From contig WBVU01000010.1 of assembly GCA_009192285.1 (NCBI GenBank), forward strand, positions 1,176,111 to 1,240,110: a DNA stretch of 64,000 bases. Direction: 5' to 3'. Shown here piece after piece: positions 1-64,000 of this stretch. The DNA is from Morchella semilibera. Lineage: Eukaryota; Ascomycota; Pezizomycetes; Pezizales; Morchellaceae. How positions within the stretch are numbered: the stretch's first letter is position 1; the number at the start of each line of letters is the position of its first letter. Under the pieces are notes generated by a model. The model was not told the DNA's origin. It worked only from the letters and a program-made list of their open reading frames with translations, and made no database searches. The position numbers and the translations under genes were made by a program.

Positions 1-3000
1 TCACGCACAGTCACACTTTATTTCTCCGCCCCAAGATTGACGCGAGAAAAGAAGCTTCTTTTTACGCCATCCGTTTTGCCTTGTCTGTCCGAAAACCTGG
101 TTTGCGGTAATCGTCTATCTAACGCCTCACGCTAGAATCTCGTTCGCGAAATAGTTTAGCACATGCTTTTTTTGGCCGGGTCCTTACCTATAGCTTCCCC
201 TCCCCACCATTCTAATCTTTGTTTTTCCTACTGCTTGCTTGCTTGCAGTTGGGGGGTGATTTGGCGGTGGTGGTGTTGATGGTGCGGTGCACTGGTGTTT
301 CTAGTGCGCTTCTATATCAGCTTCTATCTAGGGAGGGTGGGGGCCTGGCTTTTCTTTTCTTTTCTTTTTTCTTTTCTTCTTTAGCTGCTACGGTCGCTGT
401 GCGGCGGCGGTGCACTTGATTGCTTGCTTGCTGCGTTAAGGTAGGTAGAGCTAACTCGTTTGTGATAATAGGTTCTTTCTTTTTCTATATGCCTAAATGG
501 AGCTACTACATAAGTGGCTGTTTATTAATCATTATCTATGTTATGGTACATGTATGTATGTATCTTACCAACAGCTAGGGCGAGTATGCAATATTACCGG
601 TTTCCAAGTATGTATGTAGGCCTGTCCCATCCCTCAGTATGCGATGGGTGAAGAGTGGCTCACCCAGCACTAACCCCCCTCCCCCCTCAGGGATGGATAC
701 TCAGTCGGTGGTGTTGTGTGCGCGAGGTGCGATATGATGAAGGATAGGATGAGGGTACATGTATCTAATATAAAAATTTATGGGGCTGACTGACATGACT
801 GATATTATGATCCTCAGCTACATAGATGGGGCTAACTTAAACACATCGCATAGACACACAAGTAGACACCCAGGTAATGCACATTATGTGGAACCTTTTT
901 ATAGACCTTTTACAGACTCAGGGTGATCATAGCCTAGCTTTTATGACTAGGATGGCACCCAAAATACAGACCCAATCAATCAATTAATAAAAACCTGCAA
1001 CTATGATCATCACCCCTCACGCCTTCCCAGACTCCGCACACGCAAGTATAACGACAACTGCTGAGATAGAAGGATAACATGGTAAGATATAGAAACACAC
1101 CAGCACCAAGTATCCTACTCTCTACGAGCACATAAAATCACCCCCCCCCCCCCCCATTCTTCAGCGGGGCCCAGGGAAAGGGGAAGGGTGGGGGGGAGAA
1201 GAGTCAAGAATGGTTTGCGGTCATTGTGCAGCCAGCAGCACTGCACCAGTGCCGGTAAATTGCATTTTTGTACACCCACAAAAACGTGCCTTCTCTTCCC
1301 GTGCTGTTGCATATTCCAGCCTGAGCTCACCCTGCAGCAGTACCACATGCAGGGCTCACTGCGTTACCAGCATATCTACAGCCGAAGGGAAGACTCAAAG
1401 GGCACAAAATAATAATAACAATATATTACCAAAGGTAATTTTATTAGGGCAAGCTCGGTAAGGAGCGAAAATCAGGAGGCACGGCATTCTGGACTCCCAC
1501 ATGATCCTTACCTGACACAGAGTGATACTCTTTGCACAGACGATCAATATTAAAGGGCTGGACTCGAACTGGACCATCTGGAACCCTCGGAAGTCGTAAG
1601 CTATGTTGGGCAAATATAGGAGCCGCAGATGCACATGATCCATCCGAACTTCTGCTCAGCTTTTAACAAACCTAACCCAAAGATGTGCCTTCTACTAAAA
1701 CGTACAATTATTATTGATTTGTTATCCCACCGCCAGCCAAACGTGCGTGTGGCTGAAGTTATCTCATGCCCATATCAGCTGCTAAACGGTTCCAACGCAA
1801 CCCTTAGATTTCGTTAGCTTCGATCATGTATGTAGCCTCTACCAAATCGTACCTCTTACAACATTCTTGCTGAGATTTGGGACACCCAACCCAGCTGCAG
1901 CGGCGGCCCGTTCCAGGATTTTTGCCCATATCCTAGTCATGTATAGCTATAGTTACATGCTGTCTAGAAAAATGGACAGGGCTTGAGGGGTACGCTGACA
2001 CAAGGAAGTCTAGTCGGTCTAGTTCCTAGTGCTCAGAAGTGCAAAATCAAACAAACCAGGTATCTGGTATCCTTTCCGGGATGCCCCTGGTCACTGTTAT
2101 ATAAAAGATTGGATCACCAGTCAAAACGATAGTAGGTACTCTGCACCAAAGGTACCGAGGTTGAGTTGAGGCGGTGGTGTCTTGGATGTCCCAAACCTAT
2201 TTGTGCTACATCCTCCAACAATGTTTATGCTCTTGGTATGCCCCTTATAGAAAAAAATCTCCTGAATTCAGCTGAGATACTCGTAATCGTATAAGGCGTT
2301 CTGCGGATCGTCATCCGGAGGCTGAAACATGCCCTCATAGGTTCATTGTGATGTTCCTACATGTATCCTAAGATACGATTTGGTAGTTACGTGCCCGTAA
2401 ATATTGGTCCACTCAGGAACTGTATTTATCCGTGCCCAATCTGTAGTCGTGGTATTCGATCTATGGGAATTGCGAATGACCAAACAACAATTTAGATGAA
2501 GACATCTAGGGGTATGTTGTACTACTCGCGTATATATGTAGTTGCGATGCCTGAACATCATAGGTGAAATGATTTATATCCCCAGATTATCAACAAAGAC
2601 AGTGCTAGCCGGAATTAACTCGCTTGCAGATCACCTTCTGTCTAAGGCCCGTGGTGTTAATCCTTGGAGATTCACTACAAGTATTGTAGATACTGTATGT
2701 ATCTAAAGGTGGCTAGAGATACATGTATCACTTATCCTATGAGCTGCCGTGTGCCCTCTAGGTAAGTACCGTCATCTGGGGCCTCAACACTAGGACGTCC
2801 CCAACCTCTAGCGGTTTTAATTGAAGGGTTCAAGGATTGGGGTCGCTCTGCAGTGACAACAAATATAATAGAATCAAATCATTGATGTCATAAGTCAATA
2901 GAAAGCTGGGGAGAAAGTGGTTTTCTAAGGAAGCCCTCATGATCATGTACGTTGCTAAGCGATGCACCCTAACCCAGCCCCAGAGCACATCACCAACACA

Positions 3001-5778
3001 CAACTACAGTTTACAGCAGTCTGACACTTCTAGAGTATTATCATCACCACCACCACCACACATGTGTGGCACGGACTTATGTAGGTAGAGAGTACCGACA
3101 CACCCCAATCCACTCTAGGATCGGATCTAAAATCCGATCGCGTGTGTATTCAGGGACTATTGCTCACTTCTGTGCGGATTTTGATTTCTTTTGGGGAAGA
3201 TCTCTGGTTAGCCAAGATGCATATCAGGTTCGTCTCAACGTTAGGTACAGACATATTCCTCATGGATACCTACATGTACCCGGAGATCTTTCCAAAACAA
3301 CGCCGGGGGTTCAACATAGGCAGAGTAGCGTAGGCACTTCGAAAAATTATGCCGAGAGTTTTTCGATGGGTAGACATCCCCCCCCTTCTCCCCTCTGAGA
3401 ATCGATGCTGTAGGTACTCTATTCTATCGAAACATACATTATTTCGTAGTTAGAGTAGGTACATACCTAGAGTGCATGTAGTTACTCATGTTTAGGAGCC
3501 TCAACACGAGCCAGCCTTACGTGTAGCGGCGCAGCAACAGTAGCGAATAATTATTTTCCGCGTTTGCGCCATTTCCCCACCCCTCCTACCTGCTACATAT
3601 CTCAACGCGGGGGCTTACTCTACCAGCTCTACTGTTTTACTTTGCCCCTATATAAAAGATATTATATAACGGATAGATTTCCTACTGGGGAAGTATGTAA
3701 GATCTGAAAAGCAAAAGGGTCAAAAAAATCGCGACGTCACTCATATTCCATATTCTTCATTGAGGTGCTGCTGCAGACCGTGAATTAATTGGATGATTTC
3801 CTCCTAAGGCTCCCCGCGCGAGACGCGTGCATATCGTACGTAACGTAATTCCCACAATCTATGCGGTTCGGACAGAAAAAAAAAAAAAAAAAGGGAAAAG
3901 CAAAAAACAGAAGGGGGAAGGTAGAGCCGTGAAGGGAAAAGGGTTTTTTTTTTTTTGGTTGTTCTCGAAATGGACGTTCGATGAAGGATCCGTACGAAAA
4001 GGCTACCGAGACGAGACACCTAGGTGACCGGACAGGGGCATGTACAGGAAGAATAACCCCCCCTCTGCCTTTTCTCTCGCGACTGGCATCAAGATAGGAT
4101 GGTGTGCGGTAAGTACTCATGTAGTAGCCACAAAGGTGTGGAGGGCGTCCTGGCTGGCAGTTCCCAGATGCCAGTAGAGTTCTTCTCAAAGGAACCCTTG
4201 CCGCCCCTTCACCCGATATCGACTTATGTGGCCTGCCTCAAGGCCTGTTCCTAGTTGAAGATCATATTAATTGCCATGTGTTCACCCAGGTGGTGTTGTT
4301 GAGGAATGCGAAATGAAAAAAAAAACCCAAGACACATAAAGGGGTGATAGCACGCGGCAATTGATCATGATGAGACGTAACATCGATGAACTGGGGGGGG
4401 GGGGCGGTTTAATGACATGTTTGTGAGTGATGACCCATGATACACTCACCACCCCTCTCAATATGTGTTTGGAAGGTGGAATGGAAATGTCAAAAAAAAA
4501 AAAAAACAGTCCCGTCTAACCCCCCCCCCCCGGGGCGACCGAGATGGACCGAGGATAAGTGGAGTAGGTTCTTTGATTCCAATACGCGGGCAACGACATT
4601 TCCGTCTTGTATCTTGAAGCATGTCACTCCCCCTCTGTGCCTGTACGACCTAGCCTGCATCAAAATCTTTTTTATAACTCATTCACCGCCCAATAAAACC
4701 TTTGTATGCCGCCATATGCGGCATGGAGAAAACGCCCTTGTCTTTGAATTCTCAATGGGGATGCCGAATATCGAGAGTGGAAACTATATCATTGCAAGCG
4801 CATGAAAGCCAAATCTAGAGAGTTCTCAGCGTTTATAGATTATGTACGTATTTCATGAGCCAAGCTCCCGTATTTGTCAGACACAGCAGTGCCTGGAGTA
4901 ATTAGAGTGCTAGCGACCAGATACAACATGTAGGTACAGGACAATACTCTCCATACTCTTCAATACCGCGTTAACTGAGATCAACCAAAATCAATAAGCT
5001 TGATCTTAAACTCTCATGTCGCTGGGGGTTAGGTTTATTTCTTGTTAGCGATTACTATTAGGCCCCGATAGCGTGGAAATCTAGCCAAGTATCTACAGAC
5101 TGTGGAGACACTGAAATAGGTATAGTATTGGTCATAGAAGCTGATTCCACAGCGAGGAGGCTCACGGAGTGAGGTTAGGTTTACTACTCCCAGCTTCGAA
5201 AACACACGAAGGAATGTAGATGCAAGAATAGAATACATGTATAGATCCATGCAACGAAGCGCTCCGAGTTGAATTGAGGCTCTCAGAATTACATGTAGGT
5301 CATTAAAACCTCTCGGATTCCCGGTTACCAATAAATTGATTTTCATTGCGCGCAATCGGCGGTCACGTTGGGGTTCGCTACGTTGGATAAAGTCCCGTGT
5401 ATATCGGGGACCCACCCGCGAGCATTCAGCACGTAATACTAGAAAACCTTAGATAGAGTGTCTTCGGGATATCGACGCGGTAACTCGGCATATTTCTGCC
5501 TTGAAGTGAGTTTTTGCCTCATATCATCATCAGTCAGTCAATAAAGCGGCACAGACGGAACGACGGAGCCCATATATCCCGTGGGGGGAAAAAGAAAAGA
5601 AAAAAAACCCTTTCCATTTTTCCTTGTAAGCATGCCCCAAGGAGCGCGTGCCTAAGTACATGATGAACTTTTTTGATCCCCAAAGATATCCCCCCCCCCT
5701 AAAGGTTTACAAACAGAAAAAAGAAGGGAACTCGTAACTGTATACTAAAAAAAAACTGCTAAAAAGAAACACTTACAA
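1..5778. other. Intergenic, no gene recognised
   Basis: No reading frame here has exon-like structure or a recognisable domain. The stretch holds pyrimidine-rich DNA (about 180-420), long homopolymer runs (C-run near 1141-1155, A-run near 3876-3892, T-run near 3944-3957, G- and C-runs near 4391 and 4520) and seven TACATGTA palindromes. The first few hundred bases may be untranslated sequence of a gene lying left of the window, but nothing proves it. Confidence 0.6.
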
Positions 5779-8568
5779 CTACGTTCTCATCGCTCCCCCA
5801 TGGAAGCCCGATTGTTGGTTAAATTGAACGTTTTTGTTACCCCGACCCCTGCCCTGCCCTCCCCCTCTACCGCCTCTGCCGCCTTCATGGTCTCCGCGTC
5901 TGCCGCCTCTACCGCCTCTTCCACCACCCCTTCCACCCTGGCCGCCCTCCGGGAAGCCGCCCTGACCCTGTGTCTTCTGTTCCAGGACCCGCTCGTTCAT
6001 CTCCATCAAACCGCTAGCCTTATCACTCAGAGTTAAGGCTAAAGTCTGAAGGCGTGAGAGCTCAACGCCCTTTCTGAAGATAATGGCATTATTAACCTGA
6101 TCCAACGCGGCGGCGATCTCCTCGTGGGCAATCATCTTGCTGACCAGGGCTGAGACCTTCCTCTCCGAAAGGTCGAACATTTCCACTAATCTGGAAATTG
6201 ATAAAGTGTCATAGAATGGAGCATATGTGAAGAGATATGTTCGTAAACCCTCCTCTTGGATCTTCTCAGAGAGCATGTCTTTGATCTTCTGCGGTTCTGG
6301 CAGGAGATCCCAGATCTTAATGGCATGGATGAGTTCACTCGATCTCTTCCATTCTCCAGCAGCGAGTGCCTTGGCTGATTGCATAACATGATCACGTGTA
6401 TTCTCAGCAGGACCGGTAAATATTTGTCGTTCATGGTACTCGAGCATACGACGGAAAGTCTTGCTAATTACTCTCTTCTTCAGGTCAGGAGATGATCCAG
6501 TAGCTGCCAAAGCCGGAATTTCGAGCAACATCGAGCAAGTGAGATAGGCACACTCTAAGAGTTCCAGATTGATGTGCTGGTGGAACGGTAGTTGCCTCTG
6601 TCGCTCTAAACGTTCCTGCTCAGGGCTAACCTGTGAATACCTCTGAATTTGAACACCCTGGGCCAACATTTCCTTCAGTCTTCCCGTACCGCAGATCTCT
6701 TGCAGACAGGTCTGAGCCTCATAAATCAAACCGGCGCGGAAAGCGCAAAGTCCAACTTGTACGAGGGTTCTGTTATAGAGGATTTGTGTGTTAACATCGG
6801 CGACATGGATGTTCTCTTGCAGATGCGACATAAGCATTAGGTCACGAGCCTTGTAAAATTGGTTGTGAAGAGCGTAATGGTAAATGTGGCAAAGCATGGC
6901 TCGTGTGCGAAGAACAGTAGCGTCATGTTTGTAGAGATATGTGCAAAGGGTATATAGAAGATCGCTAGCAGAAGTAGATGCCTTCTTGGGCGAAATTATG
7001 GAGTCAAAGTTTTCAGGGATTGACTTCCATGCACTTTCTTCAACAGTTAAAATAACTTGTTCAGGCTACAAATCGTTAGCGCTTGCCACCTAAGAAATCA
7101 AAGAAAAAGTTGAACGTATGATCATTACCTTGAAGTATAGATGCTCCAATCTGCGCATAATAACACGGTTGATAGCCTCGTCAGCGGAGATGTTCTGGTT
7201 TCTCTGCAATCTTTCCAGATATAGCTGGTTTCGGAGAATAGTTGTGTAAAGAGCTCCCTCATCGCTAAGTCTGTCAATGTACTCTGTTGTATGAGGATCG
7301 ATGTGTTGTAATGATCGAGTAAGTTCATCATCAAGTCTATCAACAAATGAGACAACACTTCCAGGGATCTTGAGGATCTCGCCGTCAGCTGGGGCAGGCG
7401 GTTTTTCATCATCGTCCCACTCCTCCGCGTTCTCGATTACAACGTAGTCCGGATTTGCCTCGAGGACCTCCAGCAACGTGTTGAACTCTTTCTCGGCGCT
7501 GGAAAGGGGGGGATCAGCTTCGGGTTCAAGAATAGTAGTGAAAATATACTAGGAACTTACGCTTTCCATTGCTCAGCTGACATATAGGATAAAGCGCCAT
7601 AGGTAAGGTCGAAACGGGTAGAAATGAGTGCCAGAAGAACCTTAATCTTTTGATATGGTGTATGAGCAACCTCATATAGCCGCTCCATGACCTTGATTTG
7701 CTCGCCCTTATCTGTATTCTTTTTCCCCCTAGCCTCGATAATGCCCCTGAGATGTTTGAAAATACTCTCGGGGGTATAAGTCAAAACTTTCCCGCTTTTT
7801 CCTACTGTTGAAAACGCCCCATCGTCTTGATCTTCCGGCCCAACCGAGACTACTTTCGACGCCTTACTAACGACCTTGGGCGCTACTGGCTTTTTGTCCT
7901 CCTTCATAAAAGCCTCTGGATCCTTTTTATACTCCTCAATCTCTTTCTCATAACCGCGGTTGTTGCGCTTAAGGCGTTGTTTGATGGTATTAAGGGCACG
8001 GGCATTTGCCGCATTCATCTTCTTAGCTGCAGCCTTGTCTTTGAGGGCCTCATTCATAAAGTCCTCCAAGTCTGCAACGATCTTAATGTAAACCTTAGGG
8101 GCTGAGGTTTCCGTAGGCTTTGAAACAATCTTGTTTAGTTTATCGAATTCTGTATAACTTAATATTAGCTGGCGTCTCTTATCACCAGAGCTGCCCCACC
8201 AAGCTACCCCCGCATTTTGATGAACCTCAACACAAACCTGCAGAAATGAGAACCCAATCATTAATCTTCTCTCCGTTCTCAATGAGCTTAGCAGAGGTCT
8301 CAATCTCCTCCATCCGTTTGTCCTTCTGACTCTTGACGACTCTCCGTCCATCATCCACATCGCTCTCATCATCGCTCCCACCATGTCTAACCAAGAACCG
8401 ATTACCACCGGCCTCATCACCGGATGCTTCCTCCTCATCGGTTACATCTTCAGAACCTGACTCGGAGGAGTGGTCATCTACCTCAGACTCCTCTTCTTCA
8501 GAGTAAAGTTCTTCGTCGGAACTGCTGGTGTCACTGTCGCTAAGTCCTCCATGGAAAAATCGAGACAT
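5779..8568 (-). CDS. nip1: Eukaryotic translation initiation factor 3 subunit C (eIF3c/Nip1)
   Basis: Core subunit of the eIF3 complex, which binds the 40S ribosome and helps recruit the initiator tRNA and scan for the start codon in the cytoplasm. Four exons on the minus strand: 8568-8238, 8149-7561, 7498-7129 and 7065-5779. All phases close, giving 858 residues, the usual length. The N-terminus is a Ser/Asp/Glu-rich acidic segment (about residues 8-70), as in Nip1 proteins, followed by a conserved DDW-FDKL type segment across intron 1 (here [13 protein letters not shown]). The last exon carries the PCI domain ([17 protein letters not shown] and following winged helix) and ends in a Gly/Arg-rich RGG tail of about 50 residues, likely RNA-binding. 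The start is the first ATG of the acidic segment. No break or missing part is seen. Confidence 0.95.
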
Positions 8569-9726
8569 GATGAGCTAGTCGAGATGTAGAGACTGCTAGG
8601 AGAATTTGAAGCAGCTATTTAGTTTGATGGGCTCGATGCCGGCGCTCGTCAATCGTCGATAAATTCGATAAAGTGGGGTGCGATGGTTGTGATCCTGAAC
8701 GCATGTTAGAAAAAAAACCATGTGTGTGGCCAGGGCTATCTCCACTCCTAACCCTAAGCGCATCGGCTGTATCGGATCACATGACCACTCGTTGGTTCAT
8801 GAATATTCAATTGTGGCGACTACATGTGTGTTTCTACATTTAGCTGGAATGCAAACATGTATGTACATAGGTACTACCGCCGCGTTCTACTCAACCCTTA
8901 ACACTGGAGTACTTTACTCCCTATCGATTCCGTACCTGGGTGCAATGTCAATGGTATCAGCTCAGGCCATACATGTACTTGAGTACCTACGATCCTATAC
9001 CACAACGTTACATACTACGTCCATCCGAACAGAGCCTTATTACATGTATATACTTACACGTAGTATTTCCATATGAGAGATTTTATAGACTTCCCATCTT
9101 TCGTCAATTGAACAACCCATCTATTTCCGCTTTGTAGAGAGATGGCCATGGCCTCATGGCCTATCACTCGCAGACTAAAGCCTGGAGACTCCCGGCGGAG
9201 GTGGCTTATGGGAACTGGGTGTTATAAGTTCAGGAAAGAAGGGATTTAGGTGTTCCTCCTCTCCGTATAATCATGGACACACTTGAAGGAAAAGAAAGTC
9301 GCGACAATGAATTAAGCTGATAAAAAGAAAAATGGGCCCGAACTGCCGCCCACATATAATAAGAATCATTTCAACATCCCGATGGCCCTCGCTTCATTGC
9401 CCCACCGAACATGAACACAACCACACAATCCCCCCGAGAAAAGAATATGAAAGAAAGAAAAAAAAATAAAGGAAACACTATTTCCCCTGTGAACTGCTGT
9501 GTGCCTTCAGCGCATCTTGGATCCGTTGAACAATTTTATCTCGGCGCACTTGTGCTATTGAGATAGACATAAGAGATCGTCTCCACCCCCACCTATAAGA
9601 TCATACACACAATAACCGAGCGGAAGGGTGCGAAAGAGGCATGTCCGTTTTTGCAGAGAAACTCAAAAAGAATCTGCTCCACCCACGGCAGTAAAACCAA
9701 ACACTCAGCGCCACTTAATTCCTGGT
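8569..9726. other. Intergenic between eIF3c and yak1
   Basis: Contains the presumed eIF3c promoter (right of 8568 on the plus strand) and the yak1 3' untranslated region. Two exact TACATGTA palindromes lie near 8971 and 9042, with looser ACATGTA variants near 8822 and 8855. I see no gene. Confidence 0.6.
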
Positions 9727-13017
<3,291 letters not shown>

Positions 13018-13761
13018 GATGTTAAGATTGCCGGTGGGTTTGCCTAGTGCCGGTAAAGGAGACAGTATGGCGGGACTGCCCGGGTCTCTTCAGCGCTGAA
13101 TGGTCAACTGTGCTGTTGTTGATATAGAAACGGCGACGAAACCGATTAAACCTCGAGACTAACTGCACTCCACTCACTCAGTAATAGCGTAGGCAAACGA
13201 GCTGTCGAGGACGAAACCTGGACCCCCAAATTGGCCTACTATGGTGTCGATATCAGAAGTGGGTGTCGAGGACGGTTTTTTCTCGCAGCGAGTGGTATGT
13301 TGGAGGGGTGATGTTGCTTGGGGTCGGTTGGTTGACTGAGGTACGTTGGCTGGTCGTCGTTGGCGGGGAAGCAAACGCGGCGGTCGCAACGTACAGGGAG
13401 TCTTCGCCAAAGGAGGGGAGATAGCTTCAAGGAACAGAAAGAAAGAAAAAAATTATATGGACGTCACAGAATGAAGGGGGGAGCGGGAGATGGAAATGTG
13501 AGGGGAGGATTTAGGGGAAAACCACATAAATGATCAATCAAACAAGCAAATATGACTATAAGTTTATTGACTGGGTGATAGACTGAAAAAATCACCAGAA
13601 AGAGTTGTGCCAACAGCATTAACCTCAATAATGGTTTAGATTAAGCCACATGTATGCAATTATTGCTCCCAAGTACTACTACATAAAGTAGGTACATGTA
13701 CGGGTACCTTTACAACACTTGCTATAATTAACGATTGCTAGGCCCTGAAAACTGTGCAATG

Positions 13762-13900
13762 TACCGTAGAATCTGAGAAAACTCGTTGCGAGAGAGCAGG
13801 GGTATAGGCCAACCAGAGGCAGTCTTTGAACGCCAATATGCAGGTTTTGGTGTAGAATATCCCTGCTGCAGCACAACGAGTTCTCTCAGATTTTGCGGTA
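13762..13900. mobile_element. Small inverted-repeat element (MITE-like), 139 bp
   Basis: The first ~28 bases (TACCGTAGAATCTGAGAAAA and on) are matched in reverse complement by the last ~28 (ending TCAGATTTTGCGGTA), with four or five mismatches. The interior has no reading frame of note. Size and long terminal inverted repeats fit a non-autonomous DNA transposon; no family can be named from sequence alone. Confidence 0.6.
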
Positions 13901-14065
13901 TCTACATGTACATACATGTATACAATACTACATGTACATATAGGTACCATGATCAAGGTACCACATTAATCGGTGAAACCAAATAGCTACATACTACATG
14001 TATTTAGTGGTGGGCTTTGAATCCAACCTTCTCCTCTGTACCGCATGCAATTCAGGACCACAATT

Positions 14066-14182
14066 ACAGTACCGGAAATGGGTAGTGATTCTGTATTGAT
14101 ACGGTATTCTACCTAAGATGCTGTTCAAACTGGTATCCTTGATTTAATACCGTTACATTTTTACCCTCATTTCCGAGACTGT
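14066..14182. mobile_element. Weak inverted-repeat element, 117 bp
   Basis: ACAGTACCGGAAATGGGTA at the left is matched by TTACCCTCATTTCCGAGACTGT at the right in reverse complement with a few mismatches. The interior has GGTATT/AATACC motifs also seen in the element at 34287-34441, so it may be an older relative. Evidence is weaker than for its neighbours. Confidence 0.4.
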
Positions 14183-14197
14183 AGGTGTTATACCATG

Positions 14198-14427
14198 TAG
14201 ACGAGCTCACGGGGGTGTGGTCAACCCCGGGGTATGGTCAACTTTGGATCGCAACCAACCACGGACATCAAATAAATTGCAATAATTATCTACAATCAGA
14301 TCCTAAGAATATAGGGAGTATGTAGAGGACTATCTACACTCTGTGAAGGTATTGAGGTTGATTGTGTGGAGTTTACCACAACTTTGACCATACCCCGGGG
14401 TTGACCACACCCCCGTGAGATCGTCTA
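14198..14427. mobile_element. MITE-like element with ~43 bp terminal inverted repeats, 230 bp
   Basis: The left end runs TAGACGAGCTCACGGGGGTG and continues TGGTCAACCCCGGGGTATGG; the right end is its reverse complement with two or three differences over about 43 bp. The middle (about 14250-14380) is AT-rich and non-coding. Its tips share CACGGGGGT-TGGT with the element at 44453-44615, suggesting one family or superfamily. Confidence 0.75.
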
Positions 14428-14693
14428 TAGGTGCTTTCAACCAATTACTACATGTAGCAACTCTACAAAATTAAGAGCAAGGAACAAATCTCTTGATACC
14501 ATGTATCTAACTTAATCTAAGTGATGTCCTCAAACCGTATTGCTTGTTGCCAAGCTCGTTTTGAGTCAACACTGTATCACTTCATCACGTGATCCGCCCG
14601 CTTATGCCGCCTCGACACGACGGATGTCTGATAAATATCCACTTTCCCCAGATAGCTTCCTTAAGACCATTATTCTTTATAGAGAGTTTAATC

Positions 14694-20172: not shown

Positions 20173-20794
20173 TAATTTGTAGCCAGACAGCATGTTTGGA
20201 AGACCGTCCTAAGTATAGCGACCTGGGTGGTGTTGTGCATCTTGTCAGCTCTTTTTTTTGCTTCTGTAGTACATACATGTAGTACAATACGGATCACGGA
20301 AGCCTAAAAATAGCCCAAGAAACCCCTGGCAACGAAAAAAACTGGCTCAAAGCGATCAGTGCCTGTGCAAAACCCTCCCGCCCTTCCAGGGTCCGAGGGA
20401 AGCTCTTTCCTGGACAGGAACTTCTCTTCTTATTCGTTGGTTTGACCCCCCTCCTTTCTCTGCTTGTCACTTTCCTCTCTCTCGCCTGTTTATTGATCAA
20501 TCCTTTTGTTGTTCTGTTTGTTTTCACTCGTTTCGTTGTTTTGATACCTGCGAACTGTTGCTGTGACCTCCCTGTCTGCCTCAGAAACGCAGGGGATTCG
20601 CCTGACAGACGATTACATTTACCATTCACCACCACAGTCGCTTTTCTCCTCTCGCATCCTCACTCTCGTTCTCACCCTCACTCACTCTTTTGTTCATCAC
20701 TTGTTAATTACCCCCCTTCGTACTCATCTTGGGTAAGGGGAGTTTTTCTCACAGAAATAAAAACAACTCGAAGTCTATCCCGTGGTCATTCAAC

Positions 20795-27396: not shown

Positions 27397-28431
27397 GTAC
27401 ACACGGCGTAAATAGGCTCAATTAAATTTTATATTCTCTGTTTAGATTTGTATAGGTATTTGACTTTCTGGTGTTAGATACATGAGGTAACAAACAATTG
27501 AGACGAGGGCAGTACATAGAGTACATGTATTTGCGCGCATGGGCTGTACTCTAGAGATAAAACACTATGTTTTGGCACCCCAGTCTCGAAGCTCATGAGT
27601 TCAAACCGTGATATAAACAACCAGATAAGAGTGACTGCAATGACAATTTATAGTTACATATCCCTATACTGCCATCACAACCCTTCGCAAAGGGACCGAA
27701 ATATTTGTTGTGATCGCAGATGTTTTTACGGGGTGCCAAAACTTTGCGGACGCGGCAGTAATAAAGTATTTGTACTAGTAGAGTACCGGGTACATACCAC
27801 GCATACATGTACGATAAGTTACATTGTTAATGTGAACGAAACCAGGCCCTGTGCCCTGGTGAAAACAGAATCGATTACCGCCAAGGCCCACCTTCTATTC
27901 CCATAAATGGATTAGGGCGGGGAACTCCCGAGAGCCGTCCCAGAGAAAAAAAAATTGTAAGCCTCTGGCTCGAAACACCATCATAAACGCTGTGGATTGC
28001 CCCTCCAAAGCCAACCTTTCAACACTCTTCACTTTATTGCGATCCTGTTGTTGGAGTCGTTCGATTGAGGTGAACATCGCTTACTTTTGTGCATTGTGAA
28101 ACCTTGTTCTCACAAGAGGTGGCCCAAGTGGGATATCATTCTATCGCGACATGAGGCGTCTGTCGGTAGGTCACTGCCCCCTTTGCCCGGATTTCCTGTT
28201 CCTGGAATCCCTTCCACGTACACTTCAACCACCTCCTATTTCCTCTCTTCTCTGTACTACACCTCCCTTTGTACTTCTACGACCTTTAGAAAGCGTACAT
28301 TATTTAATATACCCTGTGCTTTGCCCTACATCCTAAACTACTCCCAAAACTTCTCAAAGTGGCGTCTGGTTCCTGACTTTTTTTTTTTCTTTTCACGCAA
28401 CGTTTTACAGGGCTTCCATTTGCGGTACATC
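27397..28431. other. Intergenic between POL1 and DEAH helicase
   Basis: Contains a 174-bp inverted-repeat element (27569-27742), two TACATGTA palindromes and, at the right, a pyrimidine-rich tract ending TTTTACAG at 28410 that looks like a splice acceptor of an intron in the helicase leader. No separate gene is seen. Confidence 0.55.
27569..27742. mobile_element. Short-TIR element, 174 bp
   Basis: Perfect 13-bp terminal inverted repeats GTTTTGGCACCCC and GGGGTGCCAAAAC. The interior is non-coding, with GAGTTCAAACC near the left end that resembles a tRNA B box, but no tRNA can be folded. No clear target-site duplication is seen. Confidence 0.5.
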
Positions 28432-33248: not shown

Positions 33249-33861
33249 TTGCAGTGGAATTTAAGAATCAGGGTTCACTACGTTCAGAAGGGACTATCGG
33301 GTCGGTCGAACTAGCTCGCGTTGATTGTTTCAACTGCCCCAATCCCATTGCTTACGATCTGCTCCCTACAACAGCTTCCCACATACATCATGTAGATGAC
33401 CTCCTAAGCCACTCGAACACCCCCACACTCGAACAGTTGATAGCGATTGGTGAGTTAGTACAGAAGCCGGCTACAAGATCCTTATATAACTATCTCTTGT
33501 GAGTAACCTTTTATAAGCAAATTATATGTATATATAGGTTCAAGCGCGTTTGTAGTGGGCACTTATGTAACTAGAGAATGAACTTTTGAAATCTATTGTC
33601 TATGAGAAGCGGTGATTCTGCCTTTTTTTTTTTTTTTTTTACTTTTTTTAGTGTGGATTCTGAACCTGAGCAGCCAGCTACAAATACGGATGTGATAAAA
33701 CCCAATTAAAGCTTGTTCCCAGGTATCAATCCACATATTTCTCTTCCCCTCCGATGATGTCGGGGAGAATTCTTTGTCCATGTATGTACTTCCTACATGT
33801 GGCCGTTGGTGGTAGCTATACATACTAGATATTAATCCACTCACCAATCATGGAAACTACA

Positions 33862-34030
33862 TGTAGTACCGCATTAATTCGTCTCGACGGCCGGTCACAC
33901 AAGACATTAGAATTCCCCTATTTGGTTATTTGTCTTGAATACGCCCCCTAATCTCCCCTCATACCCGCTGGAAAAGCAGCTTCGACATCTTGTGTGACCA
34001 GCCGTCGAGACGAATTAATGCGGTACTACA
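33862..34030. mobile_element. MITE-like element with ~46 bp terminal inverted repeats, 169 bp
   Basis: The left end TGTAGTACCGCATTAATTCG continues through GTCTCGACGGCCGGTCACACAAGA and is mirrored almost perfectly at the right (TCTTGTGTGACCAGCCGTCGAG onward), with one substitution in about 44 bases. The ~75-bp centre is non-coding. High arm identity suggests a fairly young insertion. Confidence 0.8.
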
Positions 34031-34441: not shown

Positions 34442-34938
34442 GGTGCTGCGTGTGCGTGTAAGTATATTGCCAGACGAGTGATTTACCATGATCAAGTGTA
34501 TGCACATACATGTATCCTTGGGTCGGTTGAAAATCAGAAAGGGGATGTGGTGTGACAAGAAACAACCTCAAGCTACATCTAATCAAAAATCAATCACTTG
34601 TGCACATGTATTTGGTCTGGTCGCGTATTGCGCGTGCGAATCAAAATCGAGCGAGTGATAATCATGATCTGGCATATGTATCCTGACTGGATTTACCCGC
34701 TGCTTTGGTGGCTAGATCATGTGAGTTGTGGATTCCGGCTATTCGATATGGACAGGCTACATACATGCACCCGGTACTTACATACTTGAGGTTGGCGCGA
34801 CGGTTATTCTAATGTTGCTTACTACTACACGCACGTAGCTAAGTATGTTTTAACATCTGTTTCGTTTATTTAACAGGCGAGTTGTGATGACCGAGACTCT
34901 TGACTCTTTAACAACACCTCACTTTTGCCTTTCTTGAG

Positions 34939-38099: not shown

Positions 38100-38913
38100 T
38101 TTTAGCTTCCGTTTTTACTTTAAATGTGATCCAACATATGAGGGGAATCCAACACTATTTAATGCTATATCATCCGTATATGGAACTAACGTATGGATAC
38201 AACCCGGAGACTAGAAAGAATTTTCGTTATTATAGGACATTGGGCTGCTTAGTCCCAAGAGCGAGATTGGTAGATCAGGTGCTTGTGTTGTGGGTGGTTT
38301 AATGAGGAGGGTGGGAGTGTCGTATGCCGATAGAAGTAAACTAAAACTTCTGTGGCTCGACAGGGTTTTTCTACATTCTGTCGTCAGTGTTATCAACAAT
38401 CGCCCACCGCCGTAATAGGATCAGTATTCTTAGGAGCCAGAGCTATAGGTATAGCGAAGCTTGTAGCGGTAAACAGGGTGGTTACTCCCTGGATCTAGAG
38501 AGTTCGAGGTTTGAAGCCCGACTATCCTAAATAGCTTCTCATAATACCTCATTGATGATCATTGATGGAGAATACCATACTATCCAATTTGGAAACAGCT
38601 TGAAGGGGAGGGCCATATAACCAGAGAAACATCATCATTACCAAAGAGACCCGCAGTGAGACTTACCGATGAGCGGTAGAGTGGAGAAAATGGAGCATGT
38701 GTGGTGGGTGCTGTGGAGAATGTGGAGTGGATGACAGTGTGGATATCGATGGGGGGGGTGATCTTTCTTTTGTGTTAGTATGACCTTGTCATCTTTCTCC
38801 TAAATACATGTAGTCGTAGCGTCAAAACACTCTCAATAGATCGATTAGATAACAAATAAGATTAGATAACAAATTTAGAAGTAAGTGACGCTTCGCTCCC
38901 TATACTGGTGGGG
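38100..38913. other. Intergenic, no gene recognised
   Basis: A purine-rich GAGAATGTGGAG stretch and a short direct repeat GATTAGATAACAAAT (about 38847-38876) are the only features, apart from one TACATGTA (about 38806). Confidence 0.5.
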
Positions 38914-41327: not shown

Positions 41328-42696
41328 AATTTCCGATGAACAACGGGAAGTCTTGGGGGTGTTGAAATAATATTGAAGCTACTTCCGTCAAGAAGGAAAG
41401 AACTGGTTCTTTGACGAGGTAGAAGATGTAATGAGGAAGAGGAGAGGGTGGGGGGGCGGAAAGGATATATGAAGGGAGAGGGGAAATTTTACCCTTCTAA
41501 AGAAGGAGGGGACACCAAAAAAAAAAAAAAGCTAGTGAGTTGTATCAGAGTTGTTGCGGTGGCTACATGTATGTACTTACAGTGCAGCAGTGCCATCAGC
41601 ATAATGTAGTACAAACGCCGAGGATGCGGAGGGGTACCCAGCAGCAGCAAAGAAAAAGGTCTGGGAAACCCCTCCACACCTCTAAGGGCTCTTGTGCATG
41701 ACCTCCCACTCGGAATATGCTCCAGTCCAACCCCGTGATCGCATCAGCGGGGGTTAAGAGCTGTTACCATAAGGGGGCTAGAATCTGTATGTTTTACCGC
41801 CTAGACCGAGTTCTGCGGAGGCAGTTGTAGGGGTCACCAAAGCGGAATAGAAATTTTCTACTCTCTCAGATGCTGTCACTCAGCTACTGGATCAGCCTCC
41901 CTGGCCCGTTAGCATCCGACACCTTGAGACACAGCAAGCTCCTGGGAACTGGGGTGATATCTGATATTTAGCAGTCGTTAATAGGATCCGGCAGAATACA
42001 TCAAGTACATGTATATATATACATGTACCCTTACAAGAATATCCCGAATCCCGAATACCGGATAGACTAGTTAATTTCACGATGAGTCTCCCGAGGCTCA
42101 ACTGCTTTGCAACGTCCCGCTGTGTATATGTAGGCAACGGCTGATGGTTTCAGTGAATTATGAATTGTACCTGCAGACCAGTATGTACAGTACAAGTATT
42201 TGCCCTCCCTCAAAAAGAACAATAAAAACCCAGACTCCTTAGGCCCCCCCAACCACAGCTCATCCCGGCCAGTTGCCAGCAAATATCACGCCGCATCATG
42301 AACTTTTCCTCCCGTCCGATCCCACAGACACAAACACAGGAGTTATAACCGATTATTTGTATAATCATGCCAGAGAAATGCGACAGGATGCTCCTGCTTG
42401 GGATGTTGCGTGTTGCGCTGGCATGAGGTTTCTCAACCCTTTCTAAAGTAGCTAAATAAACCTCCAACCCCCCCCAGGTGCATCTACCTATCCATTCACG
42501 TAAACTTGCCTACATACCCCGCCATTAAAAAAACGCCTCTTCGGTGCTATTGTGTCTCTGATTTGACCCTACATATAAACAAAGCTTCTACATACAGGAC
42601 ACTTCTCAGTACCTACAGAACAGAAACACCTCATCCATTTGCGTGGTATCTGCAACAATCCTAACTGGTTCATCATATATATAAAAATCACATAAA
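41328..42696. other. Divergent intergenic between REEP gene and TANGO2 gene
   Basis: Both promoters lie here. It contains a perfect 24-bp palindrome at 42005-42028, one further TACATGTA (about 41565), a 13-bp A-run (41518-41530) and G- and C-runs. No gene is supported. Confidence 0.55.
42005..42028. repeat. Perfect 24-bp palindrome built from two TACATGTA units
   Basis: GTACATGTATATATATACATGTAC reads the same on both strands over all 24 bases; it consists of two TACATGTA octamers joined by alternating TA. Confidence 0.95.
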
Positions 42697-44615: not shown

Positions 44616-45084
44616 AGTAATAATAATGCCGAATTTGGGTTAGTCGCCAAACCTGGGTTCTCATTATTTGAAAGGGAAAAATTGACGTAGCCTTAGAACG
44701 TGGCGAAGTGTTAGTCATACGCAAAAACTCTGAATTCCAGAGGTACGCTGTATTTCATTGCATATTGTAAATACCTAAATCGATTGAAGAGTAATCCCAG
44801 TATATGTACTCTATGGAGAGCTTGCGTCCTCATCCCATGACTCGATTCTCTCGCGCGCTCTCCTCTAGATACTTATATCTACATGTATCTGCCCATTACA
44901 AGGTTAGGAAACTAGCACACGCGTGGTAGGTGGGTATATAAGCGTTTACCTTCCTTATTTTTTTTTATCTAGCCCCACCTCTCTAACTTTATTATCTGTA
45001 ACATGTACTCTCTATTCACGAAGCTTTGGGGCCGTCGCCTGTCCACTACTTTCGCGATATACTTTCGGATTTGTAGACGAGATC

Positions 45085-48540: not shown

Positions 48541-49845
48541 GGAATTGGTGAGTACGGGACATATACTATAGCGTAGGACATATAATTGCAGCGTTCCTCC
48601 GCGAGAATCGGGCCAACGGGACTTTGTGCAGTGGGAGTGAGCAATGTCTTCCCACCGACTCGAACGTGGGGTGATTGTGTACAATAGGTACGATGTCCGC
48701 TGCTCAGTCTTAGACAGTGTCACTACATGTATGTCTGCGGGCCACCACATCACCCCACATCACCCGACCATGCCCCCAGTCCGGAAACATGAAACACCAG
48801 GACGGACGACCAATTAACGGCCCACAGCCCACAATACAGGCAGCCGCCCCCCACCCAGCTGCAGATCGACGGGCCGAGCTCGATCCCTTGTCCCGGTGCC
48901 GGGTTCATGTGTTGATCTCCCGCTGCCCCCGAGAGCAGCGATCTTGACGACCCTGGGTTCCGGGGTCCGTGGGGTATAATTAGAGGTGGCCCGATACAGC
49001 TGCGCCGGTGCAATTTCGACGTCGGGGTGAGGGTGAGTGATTGCTTGTGGTTCAAACTTCCCAATGAGCAGTTGAGGTCCGTAGTCCCTCTCATCCTTTA
49101 TCCCAGGTGCTTTCTATATGTATATATGCTTCTAATCCGATATGATTATACGTGCCGACAAAAGCTGCTGATGCCTCACCGAAGATATATTACAGGATCG
49201 ACCGCGATATCGTTTTTCATGCGAAAGAACGGTTCCGCAGTACAAGCCTACCCGGGGCCCTTGGGGGGGAATTGACGTCCTGGCTCTTGTAAATTATTTT
49301 AGAGATGTAGGTATCACTAACGATTATATTGAAATGCAATTGCGTAAAAAAGGCCTCTAATTCGTTATTCTATATATACAGATTCATGATAATCATAAGC
49401 AATTGACCGGTTTCCCATTTCCCATTTCCCATATCCCCATTACCAAACCCCCATACCACCATCACCATCACGTTAGTTAGATCCAGCTACCATCATGTAT
49501 ACAGCCCATCAAACGAGCCCAAAAGAGCAGCCAAGTAATCGCTCCCCGAGCAATTGCAGTCATAGCCAATCCCACCACAGCCGTACCGTCCCCCCACCAG
49601 GTCCCATCACCAGTAGTATCAATTCTCACAAACACAAAATCAATCGCTCACCACCCTGCCTGCAGTACAAAAGCAAAAACACCAGCATTATATAAATAAA
49701 TAAAAAAACCTCCACCATCACGACGACTGAACGATAGCAGACCTTCTCCCCAGCCTGAACCGATCCCTGAATCTCCCCTTCGTATTAACCGGGCTCCTGC
49801 AGACACACACACACAAATGATTAGTGAACCGAACCGACCGAGGTT

Positions 49846-50403
49846 TCAGATTGGGTGTTCGTACACTAGTGCCTCTTCCGTGGTACTGACGGTGTTTGAT
49901 CTAGACCTCAGGGTAGTGCTGCTGCCCGTGCTCTGGACCGACAGTGGCCGCGGCACCGCCTCGGTCGGCAGCGGGGGCAGCGGGCGATTCGGCGGCGGGC
50001 CGGGGGATGGTGGGAGGCGGCGCCATGACTTGCTGCTACTGCCTAGAGAAGTAGTAGTAGATCCTGGGGGTGGGGGGGTGGTGGTGTCAGTACATGTATG
50101 TATATATATATTAGCCAGGGGTGGGCTGGGGTAGGGCTGGACTAACCGGGATGGCGGTTCACATCTACGTGAAGGCCAAAACGGGCTCTTGAACTCCGCT
50201 CGGCTACGGGGAAGATTAATGTGATGTCCACTGTGTGGAGAATGTTAGAAGAAGGTAGTCAGCTTGGAGGGGAGGGAGGACTGACTTTCGAGCTCTTCAG
50301 AGACTTTCTCGAATTCGAGCTCTAGCTCGGTGAGCCAATTGCCGGTACACAGTTCTTCTGGCTTCCCAAGGGCTCTTCGGTAGTCGATGTCTTTGCTCGC
50401 CAT
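49846..50403 (-). CDS. Small three-exon protein with SH3-ligand-like motif, unknown
   Basis: Not recognised. Three exons on the minus strand, 50403-50286, 50230-50147 and 50063-49846, join in phase through good splice signals (GTCAGT/CACACAG and GTTAGT/CCCCAG), giving 139 residues. Part 1 is an acidic amphipathic helix (ELCTGNWLTELELEFEKVSE), part 2 a short hydrophobic/basic segment (MDITLIFPVAERSSRARFGL), part 3 a Ser- and Pro-rich tail with RPLPPLP, a perfect class I SH3 ligand (R-x-x-P-x-x-P), ending in YEHPI. It lies between the STAND-domain gene and tof1 with a long leader region upstream. An SH3-dependent scaffold or adaptor role is inference. Support rests on the exon structure; no homologue is known to me. 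Confidence 0.6.
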
Positions 50404-57036: not shown

Positions 57037-57838
57037 GATCTAGCATCTGCGCCGACTCCAATATTTCAACAACAACGCATAAACTAGATACATATCTCTG
57101 ATTGCGATTTACCAGATTCACTTTAGACCTCAAGGGCTCATACCATGTAGGCAAGAAAACATTAACGCACAGCTAGTTCTGTTGTAAGTTTGAAGACGAG
57201 TGAGATCCCATGAAGGGATTAATAGTATATACATGTATGGAGATATGTGTACACCCCCCCCCCTCGAGAATACAAACGACGTGCTCGGCGCAGGAGCACA
57301 TCGTATACATAACAGCACCTGTTTAAACTACATGTGCCGCATACACACTACAAATAGTACCGATAGAAGTCAGAGAACCACATGTAGACATATTCGAAAA
57401 GCGGTGCCATAGACAGTGCAATCACGCGAAATCACTCGCGGGCTATCAACTACTACATGTAGCCAGTAAATGCACACAAACAGCAGGCTCCAGCGGTAAA
57501 AGAGCGGAATTCATATTTACATACTAACATGCCTGCTAGCCAGCTATTGATATATCCCCCCCCCCCCACAATGCACAAAATCCACACCGCACACTACGCA
57601 TTGATATCACCAGAAGCCCAACCAAGAAAGATAGCTCGTCGATAATTAAAGGAAAAAAGAGTCAAAGCAAAGAAGATCAAAAAGAATAAAAATAAAAAAA
57701 TAAATCAAAACACCAAACCACCCAATCCATTTTTTTTCCCTCAAAAATCGCACCATCAATCACTACACAATCATTCCATACAGCCAAGAAGAGGGAACAA
57801 AAAAAGAAACAAAAGAGTTCTACACATAAAAAAAAAAC

Positions 57839-59570: not shown

Positions 59571-60499
59571 GGCTGGCTTATAGAATAGTAGATAGATGTG
59601 TTTTTAGATATGAATGCAGGGTCTTATCAGATTGAGTGTAATATGTGAAGTGGGCTGATGTTTTTTTATTTCTACTGGGGGGGGGTGTGTGAGAGGGTTT
59701 CACTGTTGGTGATGGGATGTGGGCGGGGGGCCAAGCTGCGTTGATATTCGGTGCCGCCCCTCATATGGCTTGGCAGTCTATTCGGAGATTCTTTGATTCT
59801 TGGTAAGCAAGCAAAAATGATTTCTGCCCCCGTGAATCGGCGGGGGGCAGCCGGGGCGGTTCGAATTCTAGAGGGGTCCCTCACCGATTAGCCCGGTGGG
59901 TTATGGAATGCTCACGAAAGCCGATGGAAATTCATATTCAAGACCCGATCATACATGTACCTATTGGTGTCCCCCTAGCTTCAATTTGGAATTACATGTA
60001 TTCTACCTCTAACAGCCTTCACCGTCCGGACAATCATTGCCCTTAGGGTCTTGAATACATGCTTTAACTTTCCTCCGTTAGGTGGTCCTCTCCCCCACCT
60101 CTAGCAAGCCACAACATCCGCCCGTATCCGTGCCCGCAGTAACAATTACTTTAATGCTATCCAAAGTGCTAGCTACATGTATATCTAATCTGGTCGATGA
60201 CCATGGCGCACGTATTTATAATTACTTGCGATAAGGGAGCAACATCTTTTGAGTAAACCGTTTTCCCACCACGCTGGAATATGTCCTAATCCCGCCGTAT
60301 ATCCTATATCCGTCGTCCCCCACCTTGCATAACGCTCTCCATGACGTAGATACGTATGGGCAATACTCCCCCGAAGCTCTCGGTATAAATCCAACCATCA
60401 CCCGCCCTGATCTATCAATTGGTAGTCTTCATCAAATTGAAGATTGGATCTCTCTATCTTGGAGAAAGAAGAAAAACTGTAGATATCCCCAAAAGAAAA
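59571..60499. other. Divergent intergenic between nfs1 and SDR gene
   Basis: Both promoters lie here. Three TACATGTA palindromes (about 59952, 59992 and 60173) and a G-run near 59678 are the only features seen. Confidence 0.6.
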
Positions 60500-61802: not shown

Positions 61803-62441
61803 GTAGTGTGGATTGAAGATTGAGACAAAAAGTTCTTTGATTTAAGAATATAAATAAGTGTATGTAGCTAAGCATATAAAGCGAACCATATCATAAATTT
61901 GCAAACGTTAATCAAAATGATTTTAAAGTGAAATGGATTAATCCAGGCGCCAGAGTAAATTGCTGATTTAATTCAGTTTGTATTAATAACCCCACCCCCG
62001 GCCCCAGCACACAAATTAGATTAAAAGGAGAAAAAAGGTTACTATAGCCATTGCCGTGAGACTGTGAGCAGCGGCTGTGAGAGGGAGATACGGGGGTGGT
62101 ACATAGAGGAGAGATGCTCGAGCCGCGCACGGGGGTGGACTAATTTCTTTTATTACTTTTCTTGCCTGCTACCATAATGTCTATTGCTCCTGAATTGGGT
62201 CTTTTGGGGCTACTTCATGGCTTTCGATAAGCCCAAAGGAACAACTAACCACAGCACAAGGGTCTGAGTGCGAGTGATTGCACATGATTGTTCCAGCGCA
62301 TCATGCGAACTCTTCTCTCTCTTTCCCCGATCTTAGCGTAGGATCTCTCCCATTTGTAGCTAAGCCAACTTTCCTGTCTGTGCCTATTGTTGGTCGCGAC
62401 GGTAGCTAATATACAGGGGAAAACTTACCTACGGAAGTGAT

Positions 62442-62475
62442 TGGGGTGGGGGTGGGGGTGGGGGTGGGGGTGGGA
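62442..62475. repeat. GGGGGT hexamer tandem repeat
   Basis: About five and a half head-to-tail GGGGGT units. The G-tracts are long enough to form a G-quadruplex on this strand, but there is no evidence for a role. Confidence 0.9.
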
Positions 62476-62820
62476 GAGAGGTTCCGCCTTTCCAACGTAT
62501 CTGCGGCCTAGTGGATGTCGTGTAGGGCCAGGAAAAATGGTTTTAGGTTATTTTACTTTGGTATAGTGATTTTGTTGCAATTGTATTGTAGTTTGGTGGG
62601 CAAAGTCCGGGTAGTCTCTCCAATGGTACTGCAACGTAGGGAAGCACCCTTAGCACGATATCCCTGCTCAATGGCAATAAAGAAGGGAGGTTGTGGTTGG
62701 GTCTAGGGGGCTCGACGCGTGACATGTCTAGGAGAAGAATATTTGTGTGGGCATTCGGTCTAGTGCCAAGAGGACCCACCAACAGGTAGGTTGGCTTTTT
62801 GTACTTGCCAAGCTCCACAT

Positions 62821-62858
62821 ACCTACATGTATGCGTATCCGTATACGTACATGTAGGT
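62821..62858. repeat. Imperfect 38-bp palindrome with TACATGTA at both ends
   Basis: ACCTACATGTATGCGTATC and its partner CGTATACGTACATGTAGGT mirror one another with a few central mismatches. The outer 11 bases at each end pair perfectly. Confidence 0.8.
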
Positions 62859-64000
62859 CTGCAGTGCACTGGGTGTTTTGTTTCCAGAGCACACTACATA
62901 TGTTTACAGTAAATAAGCAAAAGGTTTGAATCTTTCCTATTCTTTGACGAGTAGTCTCCACAATGTGTGATCTAGGGTGGTCCGCTGCTCCGCGTTAGAT
63001 TCGACACAGTACAAACACTGCGGATAACTCTATGACTTCTTTGGACGCGTGCACTTTTGGGTACTGGATCAGACGATGTGAACCCCTCATAGTTCTGTAT
63101 CTCTTTGGCTTCTGAAAAGGTAGAATGAGATTACTAAGTGACTTAATTGGATAATTAACAAAGAGTCAAACGAGCTATATGGTCGCGAAAAAAGCAGGAC
63201 AGATAGCTTGACAGGGCACAAACTGAGGTTTTGTCCTGTGGCCAACCGCATGGGTACGGTGTCAACCCCTCCGCAAATCCAACCGAGTGATAGTTTATGA
63301 TTACATCTATCATCACTACGGAAAACAGGATGGAATTATGTATCTAATTTTTCCGGCCGCAAGTACATGTAGTATGTATAGAGATCCATGATACAAGTAC
63401 GGGCTAACTGGGTTTAGGTGGCGGCTGATATACCAGGGAGGGTAATGATTGCTCTGAATGTTTCTAGTCTGCCAAGACTTGTATGGGTATAAAGGGGCTG
63501 TAATAGAGTATGTCCCCAAGAAGGTCGACTAAGGCGGGTCACAATCTTGCATTTTGCACCTCCTTGGCCAGGCACATATTTAGAAGTTTGGCCTAAGCAT
63601 TCCAGCCTGGATTTAGCATCCGGGGTATTGGTGTATGCGGTGACTTTCGGGTCGATTAATTGAGTGTAGGAGAACCAGCACAGCTATCACCTCACTCTAG
63701 CTAGCTAAACATAATAACCCTCTCCAACCAAATCCAATTACCCTTCCGAAAACTACATGGGCAATGGAACCACAGCGCCGCGTCCGCGAAAGCCATCTGT
63801 CCCACGCCACACTTCAATACCACTTCGCAGAAGTTGTGGGTTGCATCCCTTTTATAAAGCTCATGGACCTTCGCAGCTAGTCTTTAGTAGAACAAACTTA
63901 ATTTTACGTGTATCTCTTGGGCCAGTTGGAGAGAGCTAGCTCGAGTTTACCTCTGGGAATCATAGCACTAGGCCATCAAAATACAATACCTCTCCGGACT

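Follow-up and report, generated by a model that had tools for sequence, protein, structure and literature searches.

The palindromic octamer TACATGTA occurred 35 times as an exact match in a 64,000-base stretch of the Morchella semilibera genome (hereafter the window, C9:1176111-1240110) and 22,206 times in the genome as a whole, a mean density of about one site per 2.6 kb (0.39 per kb). The core of the motif was sharply defined, the octamer was absent from the coding calls of a 244-kb sample, there was no excess of near-miss copies over a control word, and neighbouring octamers were paired at exactly 10 bp, with a preference for particular linkers, far more often than expected by chance. The interpretation towards which we lean is that TACATGTA is the bound and maintained site of a putative general factor; protein binding, dimerisation, selection and a gene-regulatory role are the parts of this interpretation that we infer.

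Abundance of the octamer

The genome searched comprised 56,756,124 bases (56.76 Mb) in 23 contigs. Whole-genome counts were made for single words only, while the ranking of all octamers was limited to the 244-kb sample, which consisted of the window and 18 of 20 fetched 10-kb stretches (L018 and L021 were left out as duplicates). The control word, ATGTACAT, is TACATGTA reversed and has an identical base composition. Expectations for octamers were calculated with an order-3 Markov model, and the window was shuffled 100 times with preservation of dinucleotides.

A preliminary description of the window had counted at least 30 exact octamers. The number was 35, and each of the 16 coordinates named there lay 0-4 bases from a real site. 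In the shuffled sequences, the mean was 0.78 and the largest count 4. The runner-up palindromic octamer of the window, TATATATA, had 11 copies and ATGTACAT had 4. The comparison of the genome-wide count with expectation, which the description had proposed, gave 22,206 copies against approximately 1,100 expected from the base composition of the fetched stretches, and against 3,723 copies of the control word. In the sample, 226 occurrences were counted over both strands, corresponding to 113 sites (112 when non-overlapping occurrences on one strand were counted), where 13.5 were expected, a 16.7-fold excess that ranked first among all octamers seen at least 24 times. The excess is confirmed as real and genome-wide, and chance or base composition as its source was rejected by the shuffles and the Markov model. 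A uniform excess of palindromes, against which the description had cautioned, was not found, since the other 255 palindromic octamers, when pooled, were only 1.24-fold over-represented in the noncoding sample (1,664 observed, 1,338 expected).

Because some contigs are near-duplicates, the number of distinct sites is somewhat smaller than 22,206. The contig pairs C9/C10 and C12/C13 were 100% identical over the 9.95 kb sampled (L017/L018 and L020/L021), matching hits were also shared by C21 and C22, and the offsets of the matching hits on C9 and C10 drifted from +43 to -285 bases. Each of these pairs appears to be either two nearly identical haplotypes or a duplication in the assembly.

Core, flanks and near-miss copies

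The 16 possible centres of TACxxGTA were used very unequally in the sample: AT was found at 113 loci and each of the others at 1-8. Similarly, NNCATGNN occurred 1,053 times, with TACATGTA accounting for 113 occurrences and the next commonest word for 12. The flanking preferences were weaker than those of the core, with A scarce at +1 (10%), T at +3 in 59% and A at +4 in 49%. It had been suggested that many of the sites lie in longer palindromes or adjoin small inverted repeats, and neither suggestion was borne out. Fifteen symmetric flank positions scattered about the expected complementarity (high, 38 vs 29.7 at position 9; low, 21 vs 29.8 at position 6) with no consistent trend, and inverted repeats were present beside 6 of 112 sites; of 4,000 noncoding positions taken at random, 3.4% had one (p = 0.29).

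Copies with a single mismatch were not in excess over the control. Genome-wide there were 38,153 such loci for TACATGTA (60,359 less the 22,206 exact copies) and 41,979 for the control word (45,702 less 3,723). In the noncoding sample, 155 single-mismatch words were observed for TACATGTA where 112.6 were expected and 172 for the control where 106.3 were expected, so that the near-miss excess was 42 for the 113 TACATGTA sites and 66 for the control word. Under a simple birth-decay model, a neutral origin followed by decay would, at equilibrium, be expected to leave approximately one single mutant per intact site. The missing near-miss excess therefore indicates that the sites are of recent origin, are protected, or are being renewed.

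Distribution relative to coding sequence

The coding map of the sample was a crude one, based on open frames and hexamer scores, and called 28.8% of the sequence coding. The coding calls contained none of the 113 sites, which include all 35 of the window, where the Markov models predicted 0.33-0.54 (0.4 at order 3); in noncoding DNA 113 sites were observed and 7.5 expected (order 3). At the resolution of this map, the earlier statement that no octamer lies in an exon was upheld. The excess is therefore absent from coding DNA, from which avoidance does not follow; with so small an expectation, active avoidance of the octamer in exons was not demonstrated. One site had been assigned to an intron at 50146-50064. 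The proposed intron does have GT...AG boundaries on the minus strand, but the surrounding open reading frame (ORF) has no Pfam match, so the intron itself is unproven.

A different word, TATATATA, was clustered within 250 bases past the coding ends (20 copies in 15.6 kb, compared to about 0.3 per kb in other noncoding DNA, at a coding-call threshold of 15) and is possibly a 3'-end processing signal.

Pairing and helical spacing

Pairs of TACATGTA separated by 0-30 bases numbered 2,666 in the genome, as compared to 129 for the control word and approximately 270 for random placement. Among the first 100 pairs listed, all of which were on contig C1 and partly non-independent, 19 had a spacing of exactly 10 bp, while the other 30 spacings shared 81 (an average of 2.7; p = 5e-10). 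The corresponding doublet, TACATGTA-NN-TACATGTA, was present 606 times in the genome (control, 37; chance, approximately 9) and takes in at most about 5% of the sites. The two-base linker was not random. In 50 listed doublets, again all on C1, it was CC/GG in 16, CT/AG in 12 and CA/TG in 11, a distribution that differed from that of ordinary TANNTA words (CC/GG, 16 vs 5.5 expected; p = 5e-5). Around the sites in general, a TA dinucleotide at position +10, counted from the motif start, was five-fold enriched (82 of 224 flanks, where 16.1 were expected), and TA was enriched more weakly at +12, +14, +16 and +20. Overlapping pairs 6 bp apart (TACATGTACATGTA) were found 501 times (control, 90).

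The TA at +10 had raised the idea of a Pumilio-like RNA element (TGTAnnTA). This idea was dropped because, of the 113 sites, 47 had the TA to the left and 37 to the right, and the number with TA on the two sides together matched independence (15 vs 15.4).

TA dinucleotides in the sample also showed a spacing pattern of their own. A separation of 4 bp was 1.58-fold enriched (1.52-fold with TACATGTA masked), and TA-TA distances up to about 12 bp were more often even than odd. A 1.9-Mb segment, C1:3917688-5828125, held 3 of 50 listed 6-bp overlaps and 8 of the 18 DDE_3 matches of C1, whereas the 50 listed 10-bp doublets of C1, which extend to 6.08 Mb, all lay outside it. Gene-poverty of this segment (C1:3.92-5.83 Mb) was considered and not confirmed, as kinase matches are present there; several protein kinase matches were clustered in about 11 kb at C1:4026020-4036698.

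Interpretation

Several observations favour the interpretation of TACATGTA as a protein site, 1) the core is sharp, 2) there is no cloud of decayed copies, 3) pairs one helical turn apart are in excess and 4) the excess is confined to noncoding DNA. The higher density at 250-1000 bp upstream than downstream of coding calls, given below, and the precedent of the identical octamer in Phytophthora promoters, where it is linked to expression, also speak for it. In the proposed mechanism, TACATGTA would be an abundant noncoding cis-element that is read by a putative sequence-specific protein, which probably binds each palindrome in the form of a symmetric dimer. At a minority of sites, those in the 606 doublets, two dimers 10 bp apart would be placed on the same face of the helix, and the linker between them would preferably be CC/GG, CT/AG or CA/TG, as in the listed doublets. 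Selection would keep the octamers intact. At a frequency of about one site per 2.6 kb, the protein would have a general function, regulatory or architectural, and would not be the regulator of a particular pathway. Among the possibilities raised in the preliminary description, a protein site and a genome-wide architectural motif fit best, while transposons are an unlikely main source.

A number of observations weigh against the protein-site interpretation. The transition neighbours of TACATGTA were enriched about two-fold (84 vs 40.9 expected; control, 65 vs 37.1, 1.75-fold) and transversions were not, so some decay of the sites is likely, and the missing near-miss excess is the single line of evidence for selection. 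The octamer density differed little between divergent, tandem and convergent gaps, being 0.84, 0.66 and 0.63 per kb (12, 30 and 23 sites, respectively) at a coding-call threshold of 15, and 0.86, 0.65 and 0.56 per kb at a threshold of 25. A promoter bias was weak. In four overlapping tests, the densities upstream and downstream of coding calls were 0.69 vs 0.48 per kb (0-1 kb, p = 0.22), 0.67 vs 0.32 per kb (0-1 kb, second comparison, p = 0.034), and 0.90 vs 0.47 and 0.80 vs 0.37 per kb (250-1000 bp, p = 0.042 and p = 0.050), the p values being uncorrected, which is a hint of an upstream preference. The bins 1,000-1,750 bp downstream were also dense (1.1-1.2 per kb, threshold 15), and may represent the upstream side of missed genes. 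The overlapping pairs 6 bp apart could hardly be bound by two dimers at once. Two repeat-rich stretches that share repeats, L015 and L025, carried no sites in 20 kb (p = 1.4e-4, although they were singled out after the counts had been seen), and 2 of the 113 sites were in DNA repeated within the sample. In contrast, 20 loci with transposase matches (duplicates included) held 22 sites in 65.9 kb, or 0.33 per kb, near the genome mean of 0.39 per kb, and avoidance of mobile DNA is therefore not general. Lastly, a profile search of the genome for the TALE homeodomain (PF05920) gave one match over the cut-off, at C14:782200, although domains split by introns could escape this search, and the homeodomain PF00046 matched at five places, of which two belong to the C9/C10 pair; none of these homeodomain matches could be named as the TACATGTA binder.

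If one protein does read the sites, many genes would share a single control or chromatin element, and the exactness of the octamer should make it easier to fish out that protein. A wider and rather doubtful proposal is that the genome is punctuated outside exons, about every 2.6 kb, by sites of a putative general regulatory or architectural factor that can pair across a helical turn, and that the same octamer was recruited independently for a comparable role in the oomycetes.

Alternative explanations

The octamer could have been left behind by Tc1/mariner-type transposons. The excision of an element with CA...TG ends from its TA target would produce TA-CATG-TA, which is TACATGTA, and the genome would then contain up to about 20,000 such scars. 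The available text of one study names TACATGTA as a rare footprint of C. elegans Tc1 (PMC3520976). The genome contained 69 DDE_3 matches, and several Tc1-like elements had inverted ends that begin CAG or CAC beside TA. Moreover, insertions of 4 bp would be purged from exons, the TA-rich context of the sites would suit scars, and the 501 overlaps at 6 bp could be explained by serial scars at one TA and the 10-bp doublets by TANNTA targets. The three-base scar TACTGTA/TACAGTA did top its class of words, though at just 1.8-fold.

The flanks of the elements themselves point the other way. When 20 loci were examined, 8 distinct insertions had readable TA-flanked ends (L034 and L044 were duplicates), and seven of these (L030, L032, L033, L037, L042, L043 and L046) had the context G-TA...TA-C, the eighth (L048) being A-TA...TA-C. 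The scars of the seven would be GTACATGTAC, which accounted for 1,486 of the 22,206 sites (6.7%), where independent flanks would give 5.7%. The missing near-miss excess would require the scars to be young, and the doublet linkers depart from the TANNTA frequencies. With L015, L019, L025 and L026 set aside, no DNA of the sample matched at least three times elsewhere in the sample, which argues against a donor family of more than about 700 copies, not against smaller ones. In a weak test that required exact flanks, two repeats were examined for copies with TA alone in place of the octamer, and none was seen: the 10 copies listed for the first repeat and the 3 listed for the second, two of the latter on the duplicate pair C9/C10, all retained the octamer, although one copy carried four additional bases. 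The authors of a Phytophthora study likewise expected that their motif, discussed below, was not a footprint, according to the available text (PMC3520976). Thus, although the letters are those of a Tc1 footprint, neither the flanking context nor the lack of a near-miss excess suits the bulk of the sites, no high-copy donor was seen in the sample, and excision scars are an unlikely explanation for most of them. If the sites were scars, they would document transposon excision at an unusually high density.

One Tc1-like element, the inverted ends of which begin with CACCCGC, was present in two places (L042, and L043, which is the same as L044 on the duplicate contigs; ends near 1193 and 2540). 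In each case it was inserted in ATG-TA-CAT (ATGTACAT) with a TACATGTA overlapping the flank, and this element may prefer TACATGTA as a target.

A self-renewing mutational or repair process could also make and keep the octamer without any regulatory role, as in the model for HIP1 (GCGATCGC) of cyanobacteria. HIP1 is likewise one exact palindromic octamer at high frequency, and is tied to methyltransferases in the available text of the report (PMC4390886). The extreme abundance of TACATGTA, its exact palindromic form and the missing near-miss excess are HIP1-like traits, and so is the finding of a single palindromic octamer far above the Markov expectation in the sample and above its reversed word in the genome. 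Such a blind process would not be expected to respect the boundaries of coding calls in the sample, nor to generate 10-bp doublets with preferred linkers. To our knowledge, HIP1 is not confined to noncoding DNA, and it is bacterial and GC-rich, whereas TACATGTA lies outside coding calls and is over-paired at 10 bp. We consider an origin of this kind quite improbable.

A structural signal, in which nucleosomes would be positioned by DNA that alternates pyrimidine and purine and has TA steps in 10-bp phase, is very improbable: TACATGTA does alternate, TA is enriched at +10, +12, +14, +16 and +20 and alternating octamers as a class were 1.8-fold enriched (order-2 model), among them TATATATA (6.5-fold) and TGTATGTA (6.4-fold), but the class excess fell to about 1.5-fold once TACATGTA was masked, as compared to 24.5-fold for TACATGTA itself, and its nearest alternating neighbours, CACATGTA, TGCATGTA, TATATGTA and TACGTGTA, reached just 1.5-3.1-fold. 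A general palindromic or alternating purine-pyrimidine bias thus accounts for only 1.2-1.5-fold.

Related systems

The recognition helix of the TALE homeodomain at C14:782200 is WFINARRR, with Ile at the position where Irx proteins presumably have Ala (Ala50), and, judged by this mark, the protein is not of the Irx type. Iroquois (Irx) proteins, which are also TALE homeodomain proteins, share the octamer, being reported to prefer TACATGTA (cited in the available text of PMC3520976).

The same octamer is motif-1 or M93 of Phytophthora. In the available parts of the two reports (PMC3520976, PMC3597505), 12,070 Phytophthora genes have the motif upstream; P. infestans accounts for 44% of these genes, and its promoters hold 4,150 copies. 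It was over-represented in genes of hyphae and germinated cysts and was correlated with up-regulation 2-4 days after inoculation. The authors considered the motif suggestive of a homodimer site and M93 to be associated with general growth, and these parts of the reports name no proven binder. As in Morchella, the octamer is abundant and noncoding. In contrast, the Phytophthora motif is that of an oomycete and is linked to expression during infection and growth, whereas the fungal octamer has a weak upstream bias and is known from sequence alone; the 10-bp doublets found here are not mentioned in the portions of the reports that were available. Identification of a binder in either the fungus or Phytophthora would allow the question to be tested in the other lineage.

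The Drosophila DRE, TATCGATA, is likewise an eight-base palindrome, described in the available text as an element in the promoters of several genes related to proliferation (PMC551538). It differs in sequence and lineage, and a regulatory role, reported for the DRE, is only proposed for TACATGTA. Abundant palindromic cis-elements are of a known kind; what was not found described in the literature examined is how densely the sites are spread in this genome, how sharp they are, and that they form 10-bp doublets. No fungal report of TACATGTA was noticed in that literature, a weak negative as it covers only part of the papers that contain the octamer.

Sites in the window

The positions of the 35 sites and of the adjacent genes are given in Table 1.

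Table 1. Exact octamers in the window and the genes beside them (window numbering; sites of clusters are given by their first base)
Feature	Position	Strand	Context
TACATGTA, two sites	547-554, 756-763		Exact match
TACATGTA, three sites	2358-2365, 2720-2727, 3271-3278		Exact match
TACATGTA, two sites	5234-5241, 5290-5297		Past 3' end of eIF3c gene
eIF3c gene	5779-8441 (coding ORFs)	minus	eIF-3c_N/PCI by Pfam
TACATGTA, two sites	8970-8977, 9041-9048		About 530-600 bases upstream of last eIF3c coding call (minus)
Kinase match	11067-11708 (C9:1187177-1187818)	minus	Beside six-site cluster
TACATGTA, six-site cluster	13693, 13903, 13913, 13929, 13995, 14449 (span 13693-14456)		Exact match; flanked by kinase gene (minus) and SNF2 gene (plus, Pfam)
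10-bp doublet TACATGTA-CA-TACATGTA	13903/13913		Within six-site cluster
TACATGTA	20274-20281		Exact match
DNA polymerase alpha gene	Last long ORF ends 27265		Pfam
TACATGTA, two sites	27522-27529, 27804-27811		Between DNA polymerase alpha gene and plus-strand ORFs from 28069
Helicase-domain ORF	30266-32740	plus	Pfam; ORFs from 28069 lead into it and are presumably part of the helicase gene
TACATGTA, two sites	33858-33865, 34507-34514		Upstream of squalene synthase (SQS_PSY, coding call from 35382)
TACATGTA	38805-38812		Exact match
TACATGTA, three sites	41564, 42006, 42020 (span 41564-42027)		Divergent gap between TB2/DP1/HVA22 gene (minus) and TANGO2 (plus), Pfam
TACATGTA pair	42006/42020		Spacing 14 bp
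TACATGTA	44880-44887		Exact match
TACATGTA	48724-48731		Exact match
TACATGTA	50091-50098		Within possible minus-strand intron 50146-50064
TACATGTA, two sites	57230-57237, 57454-57461		Between 5' side of TIMELESS-family gene (minus) and 3' end of aminotransferase class-V gene (minus), Pfam
TACATGTA, three sites	59952, 59993, 60174 (span 59952-60181)		Divergent gap between aminotransferase class-V gene (minus) and epimerase-like gene (plus), Pfam
TACATGTA, two sites	62824-62831, 62848-62855		Exact match
TACATGTA	63364-63371		Exact match

An Rfam scan of the window at gathering thresholds detected no RNA families and ARAGORN detected no tRNA in the window. Viral contigs were scanned twice for relatives of the window proteins; the first scan gave 29 pattern matches, none of which was confirmed, and the second gave none. 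Two other words were among the most over-represented octamers of the 244-kb sample, ATCACTCG (39 observed over both strands, 5.9 expected) and TATCACTC, which overlaps it (38 observed, 8.1 expected).

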